From the IMG/VR virus record IMGVR_UViG_3300035661_000012, positions 62,001-126,000 of that record: 64,000 bases of DNA. One strand, written 5' to 3'. A program made the translations under genes and the position numbers. The stretch comes from a virus. This document shows, in pieces, positions 40,851 to 63,407 of this stretch. Positions within the stretch are counted from its first letter, which is position 1. The number at the start of each line of letters is the position of its first letter. Below the pieces are notes generated by a model, which did not search any database, was not told the DNA's origin, and saw only the letters and a program-made list of their open reading frames with translations.

Positions 40851-41111
40851 TTATTCTTCCTTATTTGTATTATCTTGTTTATAGCTATCGGGTCCCATTA
40901 ATTTATATAAGTTTTCATGTGGGACTGGTTCTCTTTTGCCTGTGAATTTTCCTCGTTTTTCTGGATCTAAATGATCACGAGAATAGAAGATAGCGCCACA
41001 ATTTAGACAAGCTTCATCTGCGTCAAAAGCTTTCCATATTTTGTTAACTTTGTCGCTACCACAAAACGGGCATTTGTTATCGAGAATATTTGGTGTTGTG
41101 TCAGTTGTCAT
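40851..41111 (-). CDS. Zinc-ribbon protein (86 aa)
   Basis: SD GGAG; the start overlaps the reverse transcriptase by 11 bases. CPFCGSDKVNKIW ... EACLNCGAIFY is a classic two-knuckle (CxxC...CxxC) zinc ribbon, followed by a charged tail. Possibly a nucleic-acid-binding partner of the reverse transcriptase or of the polymerase upstream. Confidence 0.6.
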   Translation of the reverse strand: MTTDTTPNILDNKCPFCGSDKVNKIWKAFDADEACLNCGAIFYSRDHLDPEKRGKFTGKREPVPHENLYKLMGPDSYKQDNTNKEE

Positions 41112-41949
41112 TTAAGATTCTCCGTGCAAGTTTTTGTAAATAAAAATAGTTTTTCTTGTTATCTGCTAGATTAAGTTGTTCGATTTTTCCACGTATATGC
41201 GGATTGATCTGACGAATATTAATTAGCTCTTTGATAATGTTCTGAATATATTGACGCTCAATATTTCGTTTAACATTAACCACGATGCCTAAAACTAATT
41301 GTCTTTGATAATAAGGCATCACTTTACTTTTTCGTAAGTTTAGTTCGAAACCATATCGCTTACAAATATCGTTAATAATCGATATAGTTTCTTTTGGAAC
41401 AGAGTTACCAGAGATATATAGATTATCTCCATAATTTGAATAACTCCATTGGTTTCGATCGCATATTTCCTGTATACTAACATCAATCGGTTGTCGTATA
41501 GCATTAGCGATATGTGGAGATGTTATGAAACCTTGTGGAAGTTTTCCATTGTACGTTAATAATTCAATAAAATCTTGTAAATCAATGTTAAGCAAATTAA
41601 GTAACTCGGGGATTTTCTGATTATAAACAAATAGCCCGATTAGATGATCTTTCGTAATGTTATCATAGAAATTCTTAATATCGGCTTCTAAAACGTATCG
41701 TTTGCCAACATGAATATTAGCACAGTCTCCCCTTGATCTTCCTTTTATCCAAGCATAGCTTGCATGATGAATATTAAAAACATTGTTATCAATGAAATAG
41801 TCAAGAATATATTTCTGTGCCTTTTTATATTCTGAATTTGGAGCAATAATATGACGACGTTTTATTTTGCCTTTCTTTTTTCTATGCTGCACATACGTTG
41901 ATACATAATTTGCTTTATTGGCAAGTATATTCTTTATAAGCTGACGCAT
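41101..41949 (-). CDS. Reverse transcriptase (retron/Abi-like), YGDN motif
   Basis: 282 aa. RT blocks in order: RRHIIAPNSEYKKAQKYIL (entry), CANIH at 76-80 (compare the retron NAxxH), VLEADIKNFYDNI with catalytic D90 (motif A), LPQGFITSPHIANAI at 137-151 (motif B), YSNYGDNLYIS with Y173-G-D175-N176 (motif C; YADD is usual, second Asp replaced by Asn), FELNLRKSKVM (motif D), and LVLGIVVN at 218-225 (compare retron VTG). It starts 5 bases after the E1 stop, without an SD, so is translationally coupled. No room for an upstream msr-msd RNA. No maturase, endonuclease or protease domain. Confidence 0.85.
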   Translation of the reverse strand: MRQLIKNILANKANYVSTYVQHRKKKGKIKRRHIIAPNSEYKKAQKYILDYFIDNNVFNIHHASYAWIKGRSRGDCANIHVGKRYVLEADIKNFYDNITKDHLIGLFVYNQKIPELLNLLNIDLQDFIELLTYNGKLPQGFITSPHIANAIRQPIDVSIQEICDRNQWSYSNYGDNLYISGNSVPKETISIINDICKRYGFELNLRKSKVMPYYQRQLVLGIVVNVKRNIERQYIQNIIKELINIRQINPHIRGKIEQLNLADNKKNYFYLQKLARRILNDN

Positions 41950-41954
41950 GTTAT

Positions 41955-42761
41955 TTACGATGCTTTTTGTAATAAAGTTGCTAAATCAAACTCTTTTTCC
42001 ACGAATGGGTTAGTATTCCATTCAATAAATCTCACTTTGCCGGTTCTATTAAATAATACCATGTCATATTTAAGGTCGTTGTCAACATACATAGAATAGA
42101 CCATATTAGTTATCAGTGTTCCGGCGAGTAAATTTACAGCAAGAGATTGTGGATTGAGTAATGCATTGACGGCACAATTTTGTCTTTGTTCTCTTTCGAC
42201 TGCTTCTTCTTTCTCTGCTTCTTCATTATTAAATTCATGCGGATAAACATCAACAACTGTTCTTGACTTAGTAATTAACGAGTCATAATAAACTATTTGT
42301 CCAAATGTATCGGTATTTCCGCAGCTTAACCATGCTATTGATTGAGAATTAGTAAACCGATTTCTTGATCTAACAAATTCATTAATTATTAAGCGTGTAC
42401 GGATATTATCTACAGTATCTATAATCAAATATGTGTCTGGATTGCTATAATATCCTGATCTATATGGATCGCAGATAGAATAGATATTATCTTTATCTAA
42501 AAAGCTATTTATATATGATACCTTTACTCCAAAAGCAAAGCCATAGCGTTTAGCTAATACTTCTGCTTTATATTCTCCAATATCATCGACAACAAAATTT
42601 TGCCGATTACAATTTTTCTCTTCTACTTTATCTGCGTCCATAATTATAATATCCGGAGCATTAGGAAGATGACTAGCCATTCTAATGATATTTGGTATAG
42701 CATATCCTCCTGTTCCGCCAGCACCAACAAATAATATTGTGCTTCTTTTTGAGACGACCAT
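41955..42761 (-). CDS. ThiF/E1-like activating enzyme (PRTRC-ThiF type)
   Basis: 268 aa, SD AGGAG. Adenylation motifs: VGAGGTGGY (13-20), MDADKVEEKN (D42/D44 region), CNRQNF (R53) and DIGEYKAEVLAKRYG, matching E1/ThiF/MoeB. A Cys at 196 (RQNCAVNALLNPQSLAVNLLAG) is in the region where E1-like proteins keep their thiolating Cys. No MoeZ-type CxxC zinc pairs, as in the PRTRC ThiF subgroup. Predicted to adenylate the C-terminus of the small Ubl encoded at 45279-45467. Confidence 0.85.
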   Translation of the reverse strand: MVVSKRSTILFVGAGGTGGYAIPNIIRMASHLPNAPDIIIMDADKVEEKNCNRQNFVVDDIGEYKAEVLAKRYGFAFGVKVSYINSFLDKDNIYSICDPYRSGYYSNPDTYLIIDTVDNIRTRLIINEFVRSRNRFTNSQSIAWLSCGNTDTFGQIVYYDSLITKSRTVVDVYPHEFNNEEAEKEEAVEREQRQNCAVNALLNPQSLAVNLLAGTLITNMVYSMYVDNDLKYDMVLFNRTGKVRFIEWNTNPFVEKEFDLATLLQKAS

Positions 42762-42763
42762 AT

Positions 42764-43708
42764 TTATCTTCTCCTGTTTTTGTAATAATCCTCGTATCCG
42801 AAGCCATATTGCATTGGATCTAAATAAGTGTGTATGCTTTCACTTGCAGGTGGATCTCCATAGATTGGTCTTGTGGATATTATTTCGTCGTCAAATAAAT
42901 CGCCTTGAATAACTCTATCTTTAGTTTTGTAATCATTATTATTTGCTAGCCATTCGTTTACTCTATTTTCATAGAGACGATTAGACAACTTGTTTTCATA
43001 ATCACCAAACATAGTAATATCAAATTCGTGTTTCCACAAAGGCTCAAAAACATCTTCTAAATTAAGATCAACTTTTTTATTTCCGAGTGCAAATCTTATT
43101 TGATATGTCGGATATATTTTAAATATATCGCCAATTACTAAGTGAATACTTTCTAAATTTCGATGATCGGCATCATCAACTGCTGAAAATCTACCAGTCA
43201 TTGTATGATGAGAATGTGCTTGTACTACTAAAATATTATCTTTATCCGACGGAAAATTATCATGTTCTATATCCCATTCTACAAGAGCGCCTGAGATAAT
43301 TTGTTTTGGAATCCAGAAAAAGAATTCTTGTCTTATTTTATTCCAATAAATTCGCACATAAACTTCTGTCTTATATTTTTGATATACCACACGGAACCAT
43401 TCCAATATATCTAAAAACATTTTAGCTGGAACTTTTGGCACCTTTAATTGTATGCCTTCTTTTTGGTATTCGCCATTTACTATTCCCTTAAAATCATAAC
43501 TAACTTCTTTAATAACAAAACGAGCTAAATCAGTTTCTTTAACAGTATATATACCGTCGTTTTGAATAAGCGTAGTTGAATTTACTCCCGGTTGAAAAGT
43601 ATATGTTCCAATTTGTAGTACATGGCTATTATTTATTTGATTCCGTAGTTCATTTATTGCTTGAAGTTCACTATCTGTGAAACCATTGTTTTGATTTTTC
43701 TTAGCCAT
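42764..43708 (-). CDS. JAB/MPN (JAMM) isopeptidase, PRTRC protein A-like
   Basis: 314 aa from MAKKNQ (AAGGAG SD; an earlier in-frame ATG at 43729 lacks an SD). The JAMM motif is perfect: AHSHHTMTGRFSAVDDAD gives H165-x-H167-x7-S175-x2-D178. Preceding strands (VRIYWNKIRQEFFFWIP) and a long N-terminal region fit PRTRC protein A. JAMM enzymes cleave Ub-like tags or process their C-termini. Sits between the E2-like and E1 genes in one operon. Confidence 0.85.
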   Translation of the reverse strand: MAKKNQNNGFTDSELQAINELRNQINNSHVLQIGTYTFQPGVNSTTLIQNDGIYTVKETDLARFVIKEVSYDFKGIVNGEYQKEGIQLKVPKVPAKMFLDILEWFRVVYQKYKTEVYVRIYWNKIRQEFFFWIPKQIISGALVEWDIEHDNFPSDKDNILVVQAHSHHTMTGRFSAVDDADHRNLESIHLVIGDIFKIYPTYQIRFALGNKKVDLNLEDVFEPLWKHEFDITMFGDYENKLSNRLYENRVNEWLANNNDYKTKDRVIQGDLFDDEIISTRPIYGDPPASESIHTYLDPMQYGFGYEDYYKNRRR

Positions 43709-43722
43709 ATTTTGTTCTCCTT

Positions 43723-44382
43723 TTACCATAATTTTATTGCTTCTTTAATTGTTTTTCCTGACATTTGTCCACTTCTTAATATGTGAGAGGCCTCAACCCA
43801 TTCTTGCTCTGATTGAAATGTAATGTTATTGACACGGCGGATATCATCCATATTAACCAAATCCGTATTTCTTTCGGCATTAAACCACATATTAATAATT
43901 GTATTTAGTTCATGTAAACCATGAATACTTCTTAATTCTCTAGTTAAAACATCTCCCCAGCACAAACGTGCATCACCATAAACATTATTTAAGCGAACTT
44001 GGTATATTCTGGTATTTTCTCGTGGCGGATTAAAACTACTAAATATCGACGTATTAATAACTTTATACATATTATTCTCTACCCGCAAATCAAATAAGAA
44101 ATACAGATACGGATAGTGTAAATGATATTGTATATTAGAATATGTAAAATCAAGATATTGCGTATTTCTACACACTAATACCTTCATGTTTACATCTTTA
44201 ACTTCATACCATACTATCCATAGAGGCATAATCATACTTGATTCTTCTTTAATACTAAATAATTGCCTAAGCTCATCTATGGAAACTATTTTAGGTTCGT
44301 AAATATTGGCGCTTCCTTGTTTATTGATATTGTCTATAATCGCTATACGATCATATACTGTTATATTAGCTATTTTGTTCAT
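43723..44382 (-). CDS. PRTRC protein B-like, E2-type fold with candidate catalytic Cys
   Basis: 219 aa, SD GGGAG. Central block: HYPYLYFLFDL, then FNPPRENTRIYQVRLNNVYG and DARLCWGDVL. This matches the PRTRC B signature 'YhaP.fNVY.dGrvCWG'. It also parallels E2 enzymes, where 'HPNvY..G.iCL..L' places the catalytic Cys eight residues after Asn; here N133 and C141. I infer a ubiquitin-conjugating (E2-like) role. Overlaps its upstream neighbour by 17 bases. Confidence 0.75.
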   Translation of the reverse strand: MNKIANITVYDRIAIIDNINKQGSANIYEPKIVSIDELRQLFSIKEESSMIMPLWIVWYEVKDVNMKVLVCRNTQYLDFTYSNIQYHLHYPYLYFLFDLRVENNMYKVINTSIFSSFNPPRENTRIYQVRLNNVYGDARLCWGDVLTRELRSIHGLHELNTIINMWFNAERNTDLVNMDDIRRVNNITFQSEQEWVEASHILRSGQMSGKTIKEAIKLW

Positions 44383-45001
44383 CTGATAACTCCCTGATTA
44401 AAATCTTATGTATAAAATCCAGCGCTATGAAATATGATAATAAAGAAAAAGCAACCCTATGATTCCATATTGGAGATGAAGTAATAATAAGCGGATATCG
44501 AGTCTGCTCTTCTAATCCTGCATTTACAATTTGTATTAAGTAATTTGGTGCAGTATTATCATCGCCGATATATTTCATAAAATCATTACGCAGAACATTC
44601 CATGCTTCTGCATATTTTGCTTTACCTTCACTTGTATCAACGATATTGTAAAATGTTGATGCTATAAAATTAGTAATAAAACGTGATAGCACTAATTGTA
44701 GCTCATAGCCCCTAGCTCGTGTTGTTGTTGCAGATGTTGAAAATGAACATCCGCCAATATTTAAGACTGTTTGATGATGAGCTGCTGAATATTGTTCAAT
44801 AAGAGGATTCATATTTTCTCTATAATATTTTTCAACAGCTTTAATAATTGTAAACATTATTCTTCTGTTGTAACTTGCGGTTAATTGCCATTGGTTGCGT
44901 GTAGTAATAAATCTTTTATCTAATGCGTATTTAACCAGCAGCAATAGCCGTAAGTTTGTTGATACGTTTTGCATGTTAGCAATTACTTTGTCGTCATACA
45001 T
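44366..45001 (-). CDS. Hypothetical protein of the Ubl operon (211 aa)
   Basis: Helical, with a CSFSTSATTTRARGYELQLVL segment containing a single Cys at ~85 and a C-terminal hydrophobic helix (HRVAFSLLSYFIALDFIHKIL). Overlaps the E2-like gene (17 bases) and the 75-aa gene (8 bases). It may be the target, adaptor or an extra PRTRC component; I cannot match it to PRTRC D, E or F by eye. Confidence 0.5.
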   Translation of the reverse strand: MYDDKVIANMQNVSTNLRLLLLVKYALDKRFITTRNQWQLTASYNRRIMFTIIKAVEKYYRENMNPLIEQYSAAHHQTVLNIGGCSFSTSATTTRARGYELQLVLSRFITNFIASTFYNIVDTSEGKAKYAEAWNVLRNDFMKYIGDDNTAPNYLIQIVNAGLEEQTRYPLIITSSPIWNHRVAFSLLSYFIALDFIHKILIRELSDEQNS

Positions 45002-45221
45002 AGTTTTTACTCATTTTAAATGTTGATTGAACATAACGTAATCTATCAGTAATAATATAATTGTAGTTTATTTCAAAATTAGTTAGACTTTTTGCTTCTT
45101 CCGCTGTCATTTCTGCGATTCTCCGTAATGATGGATCAGCACATAACTCATATAAGAGTTTAAGTTGAGGATTATCTTGTAATCCTGCGAATTTGGTTAA
45201 AATATCTTGTCCGGTTAACAT
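44994..45221 (-). CDS. Hypothetical protein of the Ubl operon (75 aa)
   Basis: ATG at 45221 (SD GGAG) is preferred; the longer ORF starts inside the terminator hairpin. Helical, with DPSLRRIAEMTAEEAKSLTN. First gene after the Ubl terminator. Family unknown. Confidence 0.5.
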   Translation of the reverse strand: MLTGQDILTKFAGLQDNPQLKLLYELCADPSLRRIAEMTAEEAKSLTNFEINYNYIITDRLRYVQSTFKMSKNYV

Positions 45222-45234
45222 AAGATCTCCGTAA

Positions 45235-45268
45235 TAAAAAAGCCCCTCCACATAACGTAGAGGGACTT
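45235..45268 (-). terminator. Terminator after the Ubl gene
   Basis: Minus strand AAGTCCCTC / GAGGGGCTT stem (one T-G pair, 11-base loop) followed by TTTTT. It separates the Ubl gene from the E2/JAB/E1/RT genes; read-through would lower the latter relative to the Ubl. Confidence 0.85.
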
Positions 45269-45278
45269 TGGTTGTGGA

Positions 45279-45467
45279 TTATTTACCAAGTTTGCCAGCT
45301 TTCATTTTGAAATTGATAACTTTGTTTCCAGAATCATCTGTATAAACTTCTGCTACTGTGTCATCAATTTCTGGTGCATGACCACGCAATGCAGCTTTAG
45401 CAGCATCTACACTAATGTCACCTGGAACTGTTGCTGTCATATCAGCATATTTTACGATTGTTGCCAT
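45279..45467 (-). CDS. Small ubiquitin-like protein, PRTRC protein C-like
   Basis: 62 aa, SD AAGGAG. Beta-grasp-like order: strand ATIVKYADMTATVPG, helix SVDAAKAALRGHAPEI, strand VAEVYTDDSGNKVINFKMK, tail AGKLGK. PRTRC C proteins end similarly (YTFKRA-x-GTKG, from memory). A terminal ...LG-K could be trimmed by the JAB enzyme to leave a C-terminal Gly for E1 activation. The gene is followed by its own terminator, so it should be the most abundant product of the set. Confidence 0.65.
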   Translation of the reverse strand: MATIVKYADMTATVPGDISVDAAKAALRGHAPEIDDTVAEVYTDDSGNKVINFKMKAGKLGK

Positions 45468-45481
45468 GGATACGTTACTCC

Positions 45482-45778
45482 TTAATTTTGTGCGTTATTA
45501 ATTAATGATTGAAATACGCTTGCTGTTAACGGTTCTCTTCTTGGTTGTTGAGATTCCGTTTGCTCACGTTGTACGTAATTATTTAAGATATCTTGGAATG
45601 TTTCCTGAGTTAAGACAAGGGTGTCATTAAGCTGATCGTTGACATTATTCAAATTGTCTTCCGACATTTGATCATTGTCGTCAAGACGATATTCTACTGT
45701 TTCAACGCCGCTGAATTCGAGTACGCCACCTGGAACGTATAACTCAAGAACGCTTCCTTCTAATCTGAAGCTAATCAT
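45482..45778 (-). CDS. Hypothetical acidic protein before the Ubl (98 aa)
   Basis: SD GGAGG. N-terminal beta-hairpins (MISFRLEGSVLELYVPGG, LEFSGVETVEYRL), then an Asn/Asp/Gln-rich helical region. It could be a second beta-grasp or PRTRC E-like component; not recognisable. Fourteen bases upstream of the Ubl gene, so co-expressed. Confidence 0.5.
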   Translation of the reverse strand: MISFRLEGSVLELYVPGGVLEFSGVETVEYRLDDNDQMSEDNLNNVNDQLNDTLVLTQETFQDILNNYVQREQTESQQPRREPLTASVFQSLINNAQN

Positions 45779-45830: not shown

Positions 45831-48800
45831 TTAATAATCCACATCTTCTTCGGCGAATTCTGCCTCTTCTTCATCTATTTCTTCAATAACTGAAGATGAT
45901 TCAAGAATATCGTTGATATACGGGCGAATTATTTTACAGTATCCTATTTTAGATAGATGATTATCATCTATGTTGTTTAGATTATCAACAAGGCCTGCTA
46001 TATATTCTGAATCTCCGCCTGAATGAATTCTAGAAATTGTAATTATGGTTTTATCCTCTTTCGCTAATTTCATGGCTTGTAAATATAAATCAGCATCTTC
46101 AGGAGTCATATCTAGCATATTTGTTAATATAGGCTTGATTAACTCTACTTGCTCTTCTCCAAAATTAGATAAAGCAAATACATCATAACCAGAAGCCCCA
46201 CCTTCTATATGTTTAACTCCTTCAATAACCGTATCTTGCAGAATGCGCGAAGTGATATGCTGTAGGTACATCATCTTATGTTTATTGATATTACCATTAG
46301 CATACATCCATTCAATTGCAGTATGGATTCTCCATAAGTCTACAGTCCCCATTCCTATTCTTGTTTTGGCTATTGCTGCGTCAGCTAATATATCAGCAAA
46401 TTTATCGCGTGAAATTTCATAATATTTGAATGGTTTCTCTTCAACATCTAGAAATTTCTCGTTTTTGCTAATTTCGCTTTTGATATATTGTGTTATCCAA
46501 CGTTTTTCATAACCTAACAAATAGTCAGGATTAGCAGAATATTTAGCTAATTCTTGTTGAATAGATTGATGCAGAGGCACAGCAATAGGATATAAGTCGC
46601 CATCTGTATCTGATTTGTCAAGCAGGATATCTATCGTATTACGCAGAACAGCGCCGGCAGTATATTCTGGCAACACAATCTGATTGATATCCATTTTGTA
46701 TTCTTTCTTAAGATATTTAGCAAACTGATTAAGCGTAAGAACTTCTCTTGTATGGAATTGAAATCGCCAAATAACTGGGTTTCTCACTCCAATTTCATAG
46801 ATACGTTTAAGACCCGTTTGCTTTTTGAATGCTTGGATTTGTTTAATGAGTCTTTGGTCAAGAACAACTGTCGTTCTTCTTGGCACATAGACACTTGCTA
46901 GTTGTTTGAGATTTCCTCCAGGTAATTCTGGGGAAGTAACTTGAGATAATGCGGCTCTTTTAGAAAATATCTCATGATTGATATAAAAGATATACTTCTT
47001 GAGATTTTCTAAAAGCTGTTCTTTTGTCGCTTCTCGTTTGTAAAGTTTTCGAAGGGTCATTAATATAAATTGAGAAAATGTAACAAATTGCGGATAAGTA
47101 ACTGTACCCGCCCCAACATATGTCATTTGCTCAATAATATTAAAGCTTGGAAATCTTATATATCTATTCTCATATTTTACATAGAATCCTTGGTTAAATG
47201 GATTAAGTAGGATATTATTAGTATTATATGAGACACTCCATGACGATGGATTAAAATAACTCCTCGATATTTTATCTTGAAAAACTGGGTCGTCCCATTG
47301 ATATACTGGAGTTCCATCATTATATCGGTTGAAAGATCTCAATTTGAGGAGTTGCTTTAAAATTCCTTTGTTTGATCCGTTTATGTAATTGTCATAGATT
47401 AGATTTGCGGCTTTTTCAAGATGATGATTATTTGCATTATACATATATTTCATCGTTTCTTGCATTACACGTACACCATTACTTTTACAATCATTACTAA
47501 GATCGGTAACGCCAAAACTCATAAGACCAAAGTAAACCTTATAAGTTTTGCCCATATAGACCCAGTCAACTTGTTGTAATTCTTGGCACATAATGTTGAC
47601 TTCATCTTCGGGATAATCATTAGCATTTAATGTGATAGAATCGTCTGGGCCATTTTCTGATAAAACAAAGTTTAACCAGCTCATTTTAATGCCATTGTGT
47701 CCGCTTTTAAGGGAAGTTGGACCAATGACCATCTGGACTGGTATTTTATCTTTGCCGAATTGTTTTGGTGGTATAATATATCCTAGATCCTCTCTTGGAT
47801 GCGTAACACCTTTAAGTCCATAATCTGATATTAATCTAGCAACTCCCATTTTGGCTACAATCTTCACGATAATTTTATAAGAGTTGTACATGGGGATTAT
47901 ATCTTCGATCACTCCACCTTTGTAATTAATATCATATATAACTGCAGGGAATCCTTCGAGATCATAAGCTATTATATCACCAGGATTTAATACATCGCCT
48001 TTTTGAGCTAAAATGACATCTTTGTTGGGAGTCATAAAAGTGCGGCGAACAAAGAATTCTTTTTCGGCTAATTGCTTATTAATGAGTATCTCGCCAACGG
48101 ATAATGTAAATTTACCTAGCGGCGATTGATCTTCAGTTTTGTCTGTTGTTATTGGTATAAAAACAGTATAAGCATTAATCTTTTCTTTATTATTACTTTC
48201 AAATAAATGATCCTGTTCTGGCTCTAATGGCTGTAATAATTCACTGGTATAGTGCAATCTTAGTCTTTCTGGCAAAGATGACTTAGGCTCATATATTGAA
48301 GTAATTGCGTTATCTGTAGAAGAATATCCTGCGGCTTGTATTTGCTTACCAAACAAGTTACAGTAAATTCCTTCGGATAATTCATCTACGCGAATTGGAT
48401 CATTAAATAGCTTAGAATATTTCCTAATATCTTCTTCGGATTTTGGAATAGCGGATTCCCATAATGCTCTACCAATACAATCGTAATATTCCTTTTTATT
48501 ATTCTTTTGTCTGAATGTTTTTACTATGCGAATACGATGCTCAATTTTTAGACGATTATTATAACTGACAGGCTCTATTTTCATTAAGCCATCCAAAACT
48601 TTAGAAACATCTTTTCTAAGGAATTTATGATGTATATATTTATAGTCAGATCGCCTGAAATATTCTAGTCTATCCATTACAACAAGGATTAGCATTTTAT
48701 CTACATCAAGAATGCATTCATCGTCGTCTAAATAGAAATATGGAGATAAACGAATATCGTCTGCTGTCAATTTTGGAATGATAACTGGAGAATTAAACTG

Positions 48801-48923
48801 ATTATTAAAAATTAACTCATAATGATCTCCGTTACGCATACGGAATAAAGATCCCGCATAAAAATTTAATACATTATCCAAGCTATTAATTTTATCTAAA
48901 CGTTCGAGTATTTTTTTATACAT
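45831..48923 (-). CDS. Predicted compact single-chain DNA-dependent RNA polymerase (beta/beta' fusion)
   Basis: 1030 aa, SD GAGGAG. Beta-like barrel: VKIVAKMGVARLISDYGLKG (353-372, compare RHGNKGV; K371), then EDLGYI (compare EDMPY) and PVQMVIGPTSLKSGHNG (395-411, compare vDiilNPlGvPSRMN.GQ). Beta'-like region: GGNLKQLASVYVPRRTTVV (669-687, compare GKRVD.SgRsVI), RNPVIWRFQFHTRE (714-727, compare LNRAPTLHR) and DKSDTDGDLYPIAVPLH (769-785, compare NADFDGDQMAVHVPLS; metal-binding D772/D774/D776). Blocks occur in RNAP order in one chain, about a third of the size of bacterial beta+beta'. C-terminus acidic. First gene of the operon with the Ubl set. Confidence 0.8.
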   Translation of the reverse strand: MYKKILERLDKINSLDNVLNFYAGSLFRMRNGDHYELIFNNQFNSPVIIPKLTADDIRLSPYFYLDDDECILDVDKMLILVVMDRLEYFRRSDYKYIHHKFLRKDVSKVLDGLMKIEPVSYNNRLKIEHRIRIVKTFRQKNNKKEYYDCIGRALWESAIPKSEEDIRKYSKLFNDPIRVDELSEGIYCNLFGKQIQAAGYSSTDNAITSIYEPKSSLPERLRLHYTSELLQPLEPEQDHLFESNNKEKINAYTVFIPITTDKTEDQSPLGKFTLSVGEILINKQLAEKEFFVRRTFMTPNKDVILAQKGDVLNPGDIIAYDLEGFPAVIYDINYKGGVIEDIIPMYNSYKIIVKIVAKMGVARLISDYGLKGVTHPREDLGYIIPPKQFGKDKIPVQMVIGPTSLKSGHNGIKMSWLNFVLSENGPDDSITLNANDYPEDEVNIMCQELQQVDWVYMGKTYKVYFGLMSFGVTDLSNDCKSNGVRVMQETMKYMYNANNHHLEKAANLIYDNYINGSNKGILKQLLKLRSFNRYNDGTPVYQWDDPVFQDKISRSYFNPSSWSVSYNTNNILLNPFNQGFYVKYENRYIRFPSFNIIEQMTYVGAGTVTYPQFVTFSQFILMTLRKLYKREATKEQLLENLKKYIFYINHEIFSKRAALSQVTSPELPGGNLKQLASVYVPRRTTVVLDQRLIKQIQAFKKQTGLKRIYEIGVRNPVIWRFQFHTREVLTLNQFAKYLKKEYKMDINQIVLPEYTAGAVLRNTIDILLDKSDTDGDLYPIAVPLHQSIQQELAKYSANPDYLLGYEKRWITQYIKSEISKNEKFLDVEEKPFKYYEISRDKFADILADAAIAKTRIGMGTVDLWRIHTAIEWMYANGNINKHKMMYLQHITSRILQDTVIEGVKHIEGGASGYDVFALSNFGEEQVELIKPILTNMLDMTPEDADLYLQAMKLAKEDKTIITISRIHSGGDSEYIAGLVDNLNNIDDNHLSKIGYCKIIRPYINDILESSSVIEEIDEEEAEFAEEDVDY

Positions 48924-60186: not shown

Positions 60187-61338
60187 CTAATGTTTTTTCC
60201 AATATTGTTTTGCCAGATTAATCCATTTGCCTGTTTTATCAATCTCCGAAAGTTTTTCAAGTCCTTGCTTATGATTAAATCGCTTCCAATGTCTACCTGC
60301 ATAATATATCCATTCGCCAACCTTATCAATTTCTAAAAGCTTTTCAAGTCCTAGCTTATAATCAAAGCGTTTCCAACGTGTTCCTGCATGATATATCCAT
60401 CTGCCCGTATTATCAATCTTCGAAAGTCTTTGAAGACCTGACTTGTAATCAAAGTTTTTCCAATCATTTCCTGCATAATATATCCAGCGTCCAGTTTGGT
60501 CAACTTGTATTAATCTTTGCGCTGCCAGCTTATAATTAAATTTATCCCAATAGACGCCCGCATAATATATCCAATCACCATTTCTGTCAGCTTTTAAAAG
60601 TCCTTCAAGTCCTAAGTCATAATCAAATTCAGTCCAATCAATCCCCGCATAATATATCCGTTGTCCAGTTGGGTCAACTTTTGATAATTTTTGAATTCCC
60701 AGCTTATAGTCGAATTTATCCCAATAGATTCCTGCGTAATAAATCCATTCGCCAGTTTTATCAATTTTAAGGAGTCCTTTAAGTCCTAAGTCATAGTTAA
60801 ACTGTTTCCAATGCTTACTAGCGGAGCAAATCCATTGACCAGTTTTATCCACTTCTAATAACTTTTTAAGCCCAAGCTCATAATCAAAAAAATCCCAATA
60901 TGCTCCGGCATTGAATATCCATTCTCCGTTTTTATCAACTTCAAGCAGCCTCTTAAAACCTAATGCGTAATCAAATTGCTCTAAATATTCTCCGGCGGAA
61001 GATATCCAGTCGCCGGTCTTATCGTATTTGGATAAAATCTTAAAATCATCTGGCAGGAATTCTAATATTTTGATTTTATTCCCAACGGCTTTTTTGTCAT
61101 CTTTGTCAACCACATCAAGCTCAACAATACCATAATGAGACTTTTTTATATTATGATAAAAGAGAGTCTCTGATATGTCGAAATTGGCTGAAGCGTGAAA
61201 TCCCGCCTCGCGTAATTTAACATCTTTCTTATTCATTCTATAGGTTTTGCCTTCTTTGTAGTAAAACTTAGCTTTATCAAAATCAGGCTGGCAATAATAA
61301 CCTTTTTCATCTCTATAGAAAGCTTTGATAGTTCGCAT
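60187..61338 (-). CDS. Repeat protein, DUF7666-like N-terminus + nine 29-aa repeats
   Basis: 383 aa, SD GGGAGG. The N-terminal ~110 residues (MRTIKAFYRDEKGYYC, FYYKEGKTY, AGFHAS, KIKILEFLPDDF) match a phage N-terminal domain that I recall as DUF7666-like (Y-x-x-G-x-x-Y ... C-x-x-GFH). From ~118 on come nine units of 29 aa, pattern F-D-Y-x-L-G-x-x-x-L-x-x-x-D-x-x-G-x-W-I-Y-x-A-G-x-x-W-K-x. Repeats likely form a solenoid. Paralogs at 61736 and 62405. Confidence 0.75.
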   Translation of the reverse strand: MRTIKAFYRDEKGYYCQPDFDKAKFYYKEGKTYRMNKKDVKLREAGFHASANFDISETLFYHNIKKSHYGIVELDVVDKDDKKAVGNKIKILEFLPDDFKILSKYDKTGDWISSAGEYLEQFDYALGFKRLLEVDKNGEWIFNAGAYWDFFDYELGLKKLLEVDKTGQWICSASKHWKQFNYDLGLKGLLKIDKTGEWIYYAGIYWDKFDYKLGIQKLSKVDPTGQRIYYAGIDWTEFDYDLGLEGLLKADRNGDWIYYAGVYWDKFNYKLAAQRLIQVDQTGRWIYYAGNDWKNFDYKSGLQRLSKIDNTGRWIYHAGTRWKRFDYKLGLEKLLEIDKVGEWIYYAGRHWKRFNHKQGLEKLSEIDKTGKWINLAKQYWKKH

Positions 61339-61356
61339 TGGTCCTCCCTTATTTGG

Positions 61357-61716
61357 TTATCTTATTGATTTAAGGATGTTATGTAATGCCCAGTATTCGG
61401 GATTAAAGATGGCATCGATCGTTTCTGGTAAGAGATTCACTGTTATAACGATTATAAAAACTAATATAACCACAAATAAAAGCATGGCTATAGATTCAAA
61501 ATCACCTTTGGTATTCTTGAGGTTCTTGTCTTTATTATGTTTAAAGGCATATTTGAACATTAATGTATCTGCGATTATAAAAAAGACAATCGTCGCTATA
61601 TTTTTAAATGCTTCAATATGAGCTTGATGCATGAGTACATTCCACAAATGATCAGTTGTTGTACCAAGCTTATTTGCTAATCCTTCCAATAGATTTGTAA
61701 TTTTGTTATCTAACAT
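61357..61716 (-). CDS. Two-TM membrane protein (119 aa)
   Basis: SD AAGGG. Hydrophobic segments at ~39-57 (NIATIVFFIIADTLMFKYAF) and ~75-96 (IAMLLFVVILVFIIVITV). N-terminus amphipathic. Sits between paralogs, so may be part of the same accessory block. Function unknown. Confidence 0.5.
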   Translation of the reverse strand: MLDNKITNLLEGLANKLGTTTDHLWNVLMHQAHIEAFKNIATIVFFIIADTLMFKYAFKHNKDKNLKNTKGDFESIAMLLFVVILVFIIVITVNLLPETIDAIFNPEYWALHNILKSIR

Positions 61717-61735
61717 TGTTTTATTCCCTTTTTTA

Positions 61736-62386
61736 TTATTTAATTAATGTATTTTGATATTTAGATAAAGGCTCTTTCCAATTTTCTTCTGCCCTACGTA
61801 ACCATTTTGTTGCGTTAAGTTCCAAAAGTCGTTCATATCCAAGTTTGTAGTTGAACTCTTTCCAATGAAATCCAGCACGATAAATTCGTTCTCCATGCTC
61901 ATCAACTTCTAAGAGCTTTTTAACCCCGAGCTCGAAATCAAACTTCTTCCAGTTGAGTCCGGCGTTATATATCCACTTGCCGGTTTTATCGGCTTCTAAG
62001 AGCTTTTGAAAACCTACTTGGTAATCAAAATCCTTCATGCTGCATTCCGCGAAGAATGTCCATGCGCTAGTCTTGTCATATTGAATTAGGATGTTAAAAT
62101 CTCTTGGTAGGAATTCTAATATTTTGATTTTGTAACCAACAGCCTTTTCGTCATCAGATTCCGTTGCTTTTAAATCAACGATTCCATAGTATGTATCTTC
62201 TACAGTATAGGAAGTAAGAGTTTCGGATATATCGAAATTCGCTGAGGCATGAAAGCCCGAGTGGCACAACTTAACTTTGCTCTTATCCATTGCGTAAGTT
62301 TTACCTTCTTCGTAATAAAACTTCTCTGTGTAGGGCTTGCAATAATACCCTTTTTCATCTTTGTTAAAAGCTTTTATTGTTCGCAT
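61736..62386 (-). CDS. Repeat protein paralog 2 (three repeats)
   Basis: 216 aa, SD AAGGAG. Same N-terminal domain as 60187-61338 (MRTIKAFNKDEKGYYC, FYYEEGKTY, SGFHAS, KIKILEFLPRDF) and about three 29-aa repeats (FDYQVGFQKLLEADKTGKWI...). Shorter family member; loss or gain of repeats explains length differences. Confidence 0.7.
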   Translation of the reverse strand: MRTIKAFNKDEKGYYCKPYTEKFYYEEGKTYAMDKSKVKLCHSGFHASANFDISETLTSYTVEDTYYGIVDLKATESDDEKAVGYKIKILEFLPRDFNILIQYDKTSAWTFFAECSMKDFDYQVGFQKLLEADKTGKWIYNAGLNWKKFDFELGVKKLLEVDEHGERIYRAGFHWKEFNYKLGYERLLELNATKWLRRAEENWKEPLSKYQNTLIK

Positions 62387-62404
62387 CTATTACTCCTTTT
62401 AATC

Positions 62405-63040
62405 TTAATACGAGAATGTTTTGGAATCAAATTGTTTCCAAGTTCTTCCCGCATAATATATTACTTCACCAGTTTGGTCAACTTCTAATAATCTCTCTAA
62501 TCCTAATTTGTGATCGAATTGCTTCCAAGTTTTGCCAGCCCAATAAATATAAAGCCCTTTCTTATCAACTTCTAAAAGCTTTCTAAAAGCTGTTTTATAG
62601 TCAAAGCGTTTCCAATTTCTACCCGCTTCATATATCCATCTACCAATTTCATCAATTTGTAAAAGCTTTTGGAATCCTAATTCATAGTTGGATATTTCCC
62701 GATAAACTTTATTATAAATCCACTCGCCAGTTCTGTCATATGCGGATAGGATATTAAAATCGTCGGGTAAAAACTCTAATATTTTTATCTTATCACCAAC
62801 GCATTTTCCATTGCTTGATTCGATTACATTTAAATCCACTATTCCATAGCGTGCATGTGCTATATCATAGTAGTCAATGGTATCAGATATATCGAAATGA
62901 CTTGAAGCGTGGAACCCTGATAAGCATAATTTAATATCATCAGCTTTATAAATCTCGCCTTTCTCATAGTAGAATTTCTTATCATTGGGCTTACAATAAT
63001 AGCCCTTCTTATCTCTATAGAAGGCTTTGATTGTTTTCAT
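62405..63040 (-). CDS. Repeat protein paralog 3 (three repeats plus stub)
   Basis: 211 aa from MKTIKAFYRDKKGYYC (AAGGG upstream; an earlier in-frame start is less likely). N-terminal domain as in paralogs 1 and 2 (GFHASSHFDIS, KIKILEFLPDDF). Three 29-aa repeats, then a truncated one ending FDSKTFSY. Overlaps the upstream gene by 26 bases. Confidence 0.7.
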   Translation of the reverse strand: MKTIKAFYRDKKGYYCKPNDKKFYYEKGEIYKADDIKLCLSGFHASSHFDISDTIDYYDIAHARYGIVDLNVIESSNGKCVGDKIKILEFLPDDFNILSAYDRTGEWIYNKVYREISNYELGFQKLLQIDEIGRWIYEAGRNWKRFDYKTAFRKLLEVDKKGLYIYWAGKTWKQFDHKLGLERLLEVDQTGEVIYYAGRTWKQFDSKTFSY

Positions 63041-63407
63041 CTGTTCGCCCTTTATTTTCTTTCCAATTCGGCTCATACTCGTTTAATAATTGTTTTGCTA
63101 AATCTTTCCAACTTTGTCCCCAAGTTCGCAAATTTGCATTGGCTTCTCTTAATTCTTCAAGCTCTTTCTCAAGTCCAGTCAATTCATATTGTATATCGTA
63201 GAATTTATCTTCGTGTCCACATCCATCGCCAATTTCACGGCATTCGCATTTTGATTGATATGCTATGTTATACACTTTATTTATCGCTCTAATTATACTG
63301 TCTATATCTGGACAAGTGTTTTCAGGAGGTTTTTGGAGACCCAAGATTTCTTCGCTTGTTTTTGGCTTCGGCTTAATCTGGCCGTTGATATTTATTACTT
63401 CTCCCAT
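63015..63407 (-). CDS. Coiled-coil/cysteine protein (130 aa)
   Basis: SD AAGGAG. KCECREIGDGCG Cys/Gly cluster in mid-protein and a heptad helix (LTGLEKELEELREANANLR), ending with an Asn-rich tail. Upstream of the paralog trio. Unknown. Confidence 0.45.
   Translation of the reverse strand: MGEVININGQIKPKPKTSEEILGLQKPPENTCPDIDSIIRAINKVYNIAYQSKCECREIGDGCGHEDKFYDIQYELTGLEKELEELREANANLRTWGQSWKDLAKQLLNEYEPNWKENKGRTDENNQSLL

Follow-up and report, generated by a model that had tools for sequence, protein, structure and literature searches.

The 64,000-nucleotide stretch of DNA analyzed here (the window) comprises bases 62001–126000 of the 154,304-bp virus record IMGVR_UViG_3300035661_000012. It contains DNA polymerase and primase-helicase genes, and the parts of the record outside the window encode portal (5e-38), major head (8e-13), tail sheath (1e-63) and baseplate wedge (9e-38) proteins; these structural and replication genes mark the record as that of a contractile-tailed phage. 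On its minus strand, the window encodes a ubiquitin-like protein (Ubl), an E2-like protein, a JAB/JAMM peptidase and an E1-like ThiF protein (Table 1), which resemble the proteins C, B, A and ThiF of the PRTRC system. We consider it likely that they form a phage version of the PRTRC-type (row 6d of Iyer 2006) system for Ubl conjugation and deconjugation, in which the Ubl is kept in excess.

Table 1. Genes and features of the cassette and its immediate surroundings (window coordinates)
Feature	Coordinates	Strand	Remarks
Ubl, 62 aa	45279..45467	-	family HMM without the window sequence 1.1e-10; AAGGAG ribosome site
Terminator-like hairpin directly 3' of the Ubl gene	45239..45269	-	14 bp, dG -19.6, followed by TTTATTA
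Small cassette protein, 75 aa, ends -SKNYV	44994..45221	-	ATG right after GGAGATCTT; 85 aa from GTG 45251
Alpha-helical cassette protein, 211 aa	44366..45001	-	position kept; occupies the place of PRTRC F
E2-like protein, 219 aa	43723..44382	-	N133 and C141, spacing 8
JAB/JAMM peptidase, PRTRC A relative, 314 aa	42764..43708	-	321 aa from upstream ATG at 43729
E1-like ThiF, 268 aa	41955..42761	-	ATP loop G13-G18, R53, K65, D118, catalytic-type C196
Retron-type reverse transcriptase directly downstream of ThiF	41101..41949	-	motif C = YGDN
98-aa protein upstream of Ubl	45482..45778	-	place of PRTRC E; without family match
1030-aa protein	45831..48923	-	RNA-polymerase-like solely by its SDTDGD motif; also lies upstream of the cassette in the three nearest relatives

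An initial annotation had listed the four named genes as adjacent. All four open reading frames (ORFs) are present on the minus strand within 41955–45467, but they are not contiguous: the co-directional genes for the small and the helical protein sit between Ubl and E2, and the terminator-like hairpin sets the Ubl gene apart from the remaining cassette. The minus strand reads, in order, the 1030-residue protein, the 98-residue protein, Ubl, the small protein, the helical protein, E2, JAB, ThiF and the reverse transcriptase. Hidden Markov models (HMMs) built from relatives with the window left out select exactly the four named proteins among the 304 window ORFs (Ubl 1.1e-10, E2 5e-19, JAB 8e-50, ThiF 3e-59). 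HMMs of the plasmid PRTRC proteins recover ThiF (6e-27), JAB (6e-12) and E2 (4e-4) from the same ORFs, but that of PRTRC C misses the Ubl. In library searches with the individual window proteins, ThiF matches PRTRC_ThiF (4e-24) and JAB matches PRTRC_A (4e-11), E2 matches PRTRC_B (E=0.016) and Pfam Prok-E2_D (E=0.018) weakly, and the Ubl has no match. The family assignment of the latter two is thus owed to their relatives: Prok-E2_D is matched by 37 of 49 E2 relatives (best 3e-29) and PRTRC_C by nine of 30 Ubl relatives (best 5e-12).

Two lines of evidence, HMM-HMM comparison and gene order, support the relationship to PRTRC that the initial annotation had proposed. Phage and plasmid alignments match each other at 2e-35 for ThiF (hhalign probability 99.9%), 9e-20 for A/JAB (99.2%), 6e-12 for B/E2 (97.5%) and 9e-9 for C/Ubl (95.7%), while cross controls of C, the helical and the small protein against C, E and F reach at most 0.4%. 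The order ParB-E-C-F-B-A-ThiF is present, in full or in part, at six plasmid loci; C-F-B-A-ThiF in plasmids compares to Ubl-(helical and small, in either order)-E2-JAB-ThiF in phages. Measured against the curated NCBIfam cut-offs, however, the window proteins reach 85 of 144.75 bits (ThiF), 43 of 101.8 (A) and 14.6 of 131.45 (B), with none for C; as all scores stay below the cut-offs, we call this a phage variant and not the PRTRC system proper. The ParB-like partner is missing, as had been stated: neither PRTRC_parB nor ParB_N has a match in the 154-kb record, which may be incomplete, in searches with positive controls. A search for the actin-like PRTRC_D gave no match in the record, and the control genomes were equally silent. 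In a ThiF tree, made by a quick method and containing many long branches, the 47 phage cassettes that have the small gene all lie opposite seven of eight plasmids across a 99% branch. The cassette is best regarded as a phage branch of the wider PRTRC/‘row 6d’ family, rather than a strict PRTRC system.

The predicted catalytic residues of the cassette are kept at 11–35% identity. N133 and C141 of the E2-like protein are indeed found at the positions given earlier, and C141, whose conservation among homologs had been proposed as a test, is kept by all 47 phage relatives and all 49 aligned E2s. Across these 49 sequences, which are 11–23% identical to the window protein, P91, N133 and C141 are the only invariant columns; the phage-type E2s additionally share G143 (47/47, together with N133 and C141). 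The asparagine lies eight residues ahead of the cysteine. The same spacing is found in the HPN...C motif of eukaryotic E2s, such as UbcH5. In the JAB protein, the JAMM residues H165/H167/S175/D178 are as described if translation starts at the second methionine (ATG 43708), which is preceded by AAAGGAG and yields the 314-residue form. Numbered from the longest ORF, they become H172/H174/S182/D185, and the JAMM glutamate, absent from the initial annotation, is E122 (E115 in the shorter form); all five are invariant in the 47 ungapped rows of 50. The N-terminal region of JAB is long; W129, a candidate for the conserved Trp that type 6d JAB proteins carry, along with a conserved Arg, in an N-terminal alpha+beta domain, is W in 37 and Y in eight of the 50 sequences. 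In ThiF, G13–G18 and R53 were correctly identified; R53 and K65 are conserved in 46/46 ungapped rows, and D118 and the catalytic-type C196, the latter likewise overlooked before, in 47/47.

In the Ubl, G61 is the sole invariant column in an alignment of 30 sequences, and we predict the mature C-terminus of the window protein at this residue, with the extra K62 to be trimmed. A GTKG or GNKG tail is found in 52 of 64 distinct Ubl ORFs. While the window gene encodes a single unit, 13 of these ORFs are tandem repeats of two to six units with a GTKG-like tail on each domain: six in locus L036, five in L058, four in Bacillus phage KLEB27-3 (L002), L108 and L113, and three in Vibrio phage D69. Such precursors need a processing peptidase that cuts after the terminal glycine, and the cassette itself includes a JAMM peptidase; cleavage of poly-Ubl would be the expected job of JAB. 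Furthermore, of 46 phage-type loci, 30 have a terminator-like hairpin behind the Ubl gene, as against 4.4 expected and at most eight in dinucleotide shuffles, and 26 of these hairpins have a dG at or below -13 (0.3 in shuffles). Hairpins are also found after ThiF, at the end of the cassette (26/47), but after the helical, small and E2 genes in only one, one and two cases, where there is little space before the downstream genes. The poly-Ubl genes and the hairpin after Ubl agree in pointing to much modifier and few enzymes.

A DNA-level search found no near relative, and single-sequence searches of viral contigs with the window ThiF or the 1030-residue protein found no relative either, alignments being needed; tblastn with the window E2 gave no phage match, although phage E2 genes exist. 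In named phages, tblastn led to relatives of ThiF and JAB: Salmonella phage Arash, Bacillus phage KLEB27-3, Acinetobacter phage ME3 and the Vibrio phages D69, D148 and D181 carry them, mostly under the labels hypothetical or ‘structural’. GenBank names some parts, namely PRTRC A in ME3 and a PRTRC_A domain in KLEB27-3. In IMG/VR, scans based on alignments of five sequences yielded 102 ThiF and 46 JAB relatives. With iterated HMMs, E2, JAB and ThiF are jointly detected at 120 of 133 loci, a number of which overlap, and the fetched loci contain 79 distinct E2 sequences. Contigs with the small gene are mostly long, often 100–340 kb; other IMG/VR contigs, of 15–60 kb, carry the cassette without it, group with the plasmids and may be non-phage. 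Judging from these searches, the cassette is not peculiar to the window phage; it is a conserved phage branch, detectable in dozens of distant large phages. D69 ThiF looks frameshifted as annotated in the deposited record, but a longer frame is open. The JAB gene of ME3 (L006 2751–5861) is split in two by a stretch with a tRNA-Met and homing-endonuclease-like genes.

In Arash, the cassette is expressed. Mass spectrometry of particle preparations detected Gp246, Gp247, Gp248 and Gp249 with 5, 3, 2 and 5 unique peptides (PMC10585845 Table 2), which we mapped via GenBank locus tags to ThiF, JAB, E2 and the small protein, respectively; ThiF and PRTRC are unmentioned in that paper. The Arash Ubl (L003 107–307; 66 residues, ending GTKG) is unannotated, and since the deposited gp251 covers the same bases in another frame, the Gp251 count was not used.

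The distribution of the cassette also bears on a reading in which it counters host defences, be it by conjugation to host antiviral proteins, for example of CBASS or Bil, or by stripping modifiers from them with JAB. Bacteria turn related E1-E2-JAB sets on phages (PMC10097602, PMC11153139; likewise Hor 2024, as cited in PMC11364771), and phages profit by opposing such defences. However, we recognized no counter-defence gene cluster around the cassette, and its conservation in phages reported on Salmonella, Vibrio, Acinetobacter and Bacillus makes a single host target unlikely. As the spread over unrelated hosts favors a general role, we regard a counter-defence purpose as rather improbable.

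In the conjugation pathway that we prefer, JAB would trim the Ubl precursor after its terminal glycine, removing K62 in the window protein and the tandem-repeat linkers in the relatives. ThiF would adenylate this glycine and then carry the Ubl on C196, from where it would move to C141 of E2; with N133 supporting catalysis, E2 would join it to amino groups of targets, and JAB could take it off again. The helical and the 75-residue proteins would likely serve as adaptors or first targets, while the hairpin after Ubl and the poly-Ubl genes of relatives would keep the modifier above the enzymes. Such an excess suggests that abundant proteins are tagged stoichiometrically in the course of infection; candidate targets range from virion proteins and replication or transcription complexes to host proteins. 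We infer all reaction steps, the excess of Ubl protein, the conjugation and its targets from what was computed here, that is, from the genes, their order and homology, the invariant residues, the tandem repeats and the hairpins. More speculatively, and with a good deal of doubt, large tailed phages might maintain a ubiquitin economy of their own, in which a modifier made in excess from poly-Ubl or terminator-boosted genes and matured by the JAMM peptidase is attached in bulk by the phage E1 and E2 to abundant phage or host proteins, such as virion, replication and transcription complexes, with the small protein ending in [FY][VI] as the adaptor that would select among them.

ThiF, JAB and small proteins with a C-terminal glycine also work in sulfur transfer (PMC1779556), and sulfur-pathway ThiF/MoeB models rank second among the profile matches of the E1. 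The Ubl might accordingly be a ThiS/MoaD-like carrier, converted by ThiF to a thiocarboxylate for the thiolation of a nucleotide, a tRNA or a small molecule, with JAB only maturing it. Yet in nearly all loci the set includes an E2-like protein whose Asn and Cys are invariant. In addition, the E1 lacks a rhodanese domain, no sulfurtransferase gene is seen next to it, and a carrier that acts catalytically would hardly be expected at a poly-Ubl dosage. Mainly because the E2 is invariant, we consider sulfur transfer improbable, with only a slim chance of being correct.

The small gene lies at the same place in most phage cassettes. Its product is barely conserved apart from the C-terminal [FY][VI], which is found in 39 of 55 position-defined cases, compared to 16 of 1892 background ORFs; the small protein of L014, which ends KIFG, is an exception. 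In a cyanobacterial plasmid set (L147 4314–4774), a Ubl ending AGTKG-TT is followed by an 83-residue gene ending -RGF, so that a small gene at this position is not strictly phage-only. An identity of the small protein with PRTRC C, E or F was rejected by hhalign, which also finds no detectable similarity between the helical protein and PRTRC F (probability 0.4%). The strongly kept C-terminus of the small protein, together with MccB as the first-ranked PDB match of the E1 profile, allows for a scheme in which E1 and E2 act on this or another non-Ubl C-terminus, as MccB or CBASS Cap2 do. It is a very unlikely one, given that the cassette retains a Ubl with an invariant terminal glycine and that E1 enzymes do not usually adenylate a bulky hydrophobic residue at a C-terminus. 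Lastly, the divergence of the sequences and their scores below all curated cut-offs could suggest a decayed, functionless cassette of plasmid origin, but this is barely credible for intact ORFs and ribosome sites with catalytic residues that are invariant across very divergent phages.

Several points weigh against the conjugation reading. The first residue of the classical HPN motif, His, is missing from the phage E2s, which mostly read F-P-N. They also do not conserve the downstream His of the plasmid E2s: the position paired with it by hhalign is N, D, S or T, with His in only 2/47, while the neighboring D174 is kept in 44/47, in the family motif N-x-D-L. The E2 fold proposed for the 219-residue protein is favored by the Prok-E2_D family match and by a model (49 sequences, pLDDT 80.9) for which 34 of the 50 best Foldseek PDB matches are eukaryotic E2 enzymes, but none of these matches is individually significant (best E=0.2, TM 0.32–0.45). 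Similarly, the beta-grasp character proposed for the Ubl is reflected in the beta-beta-alpha-beta-beta order of its model (30 sequences, pLDDT 84.5; residues 59–62 disordered) and in its nearest PDB matches, the domains of proteins G and L and, lower down, ubiquitin, although none is significant (best E=0.06, TM 0.38). For both proteins, the family evidence is stronger than the structure-model matches, and none of the three refuting outcomes named in the initial annotation, one on C141 and two on these folds, was observed. Moreover, the window Ubl ends GKLG-K rather than GTKG, the helical protein has no detectable similarity to PRTRC F, and the hairpins could mark a second promoter instead of partial read-through. 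Finally, the Arash preparation listed 116 proteins including enzymes (PMC10585845); detection in it signifies expression, not packaging.

Of the flanking genes, the one said to begin the operon as an RNA polymerase encodes the 1030-residue protein; it does lie upstream and has a conserved DxDGD motif, but no Pfam or PDB profile matches it. Homologs precede the cassette in L014 (40% identity) and L109 (27%), with a partial one in ME3. The 98-residue upstream protein matches no NCBIfam model, including PRTRC E. At the other end, the reverse transcriptase noted earlier is confirmed as retron-type (PADLOC RT_III-A, 2e-44); no Rfam RNA family is found near it. Nine loci have a reverse transcriptase directly or <1 kb downstream of ThiF, namely the window, L014 (7800–8693), L015 (7993–8835), L021, L032, L033, L062, L097 and L103, and in six others one lies 3.9–5.4 kb downstream; its motif C is YGDN or YVDN, not YxDD, in the window, L014, L015 and L033. 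It is a recurrent neighbor whose membership in the cassette system is uncertain. Elsewhere, in gut phage contig MT835919 (L001 1679–2761), ThiF has a DnaN-like gene (by eye) next to it, and the PRTRC genes of two plasmids (L142 14177–15292; L144 12539–13645) have genes annotated as DNA polymerase III beta nearby. At window positions 60187–63076, three adjoining proteins are, by eye, built of GxWIYxAGxxWxxFxY-like repeat units.

In the searchable, mostly open-access literature, we found no report joining the parts of the phage cassette, though an earlier account is possible; judged by title and abstract, no paper on PRTRC function or phage PRTRC was found, and queries for ubiquitin-like sets carried by phages brought up host defences or reviews. 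So far, Ubl conjugation in prokaryotes has mostly been encountered among the defences of hosts against phages. In the present case, it is the phages that have a complete set, with predicted active sites intact; the set is conserved over very divergent genomes, some of which have poly-ubiquitin-like genes. Culturable lytic carriers (Bacillus KLEB27-3, Salmonella Arash, Vibrio D69 and Acinetobacter ME3) offer a direct route to what such a system modifies.

Among known systems, the cassette resembles PRTRC in having homologs of C, B, A and ThiF in the same order and a helical protein where F lies. It differs in the absence of ParB and of a recognizable E or F, does not keep the downstream E2 His, and adds the 75-residue protein and the hairpin after Ubl, with poly-Ubl in relatives. 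The type 6d operons, listed from bacteria by Iyer, Burroughs and Aravind 2006 (PMC1779556), share with it a Ub-like protein with C-terminal glycine, a JAB that extends N-terminally, an E1, a helical protein and an E2 without the classical His, but their absolutely conserved downstream E2 His is not kept in the phage cassette; for phages, that study describes only Ub-like and JAB tail-assembly genes. Bil (BilABCD) and CBASS Cap2/Cap3 likewise represent prokaryotic E1-E2-JAMM conjugation with a deconjugase, and BilA is a two-Ubl protein that is processed by BilC (PMC11354881). However, these are host defences against phages, whereas the cassette described here is phage-owned. Moreover, BilD has two adenylation domains, one inactive and one active, and Cap2 is an E1-E2 fusion; the phage E1 is a single ThiF domain in 268 residues, and its E2 is separate. 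Finally, head-to-tail Ubl repeats parted at the terminal glycine are also known from type 6e multi-ubiquitin operons and eukaryotic polyubiquitin genes. Type 6e combines them with an inactive E2-like domain and JAB-E1 fusions, whereas the phage poly-Ubl genes, with up to six repeats, are accompanied by separate enzymes of the active type.

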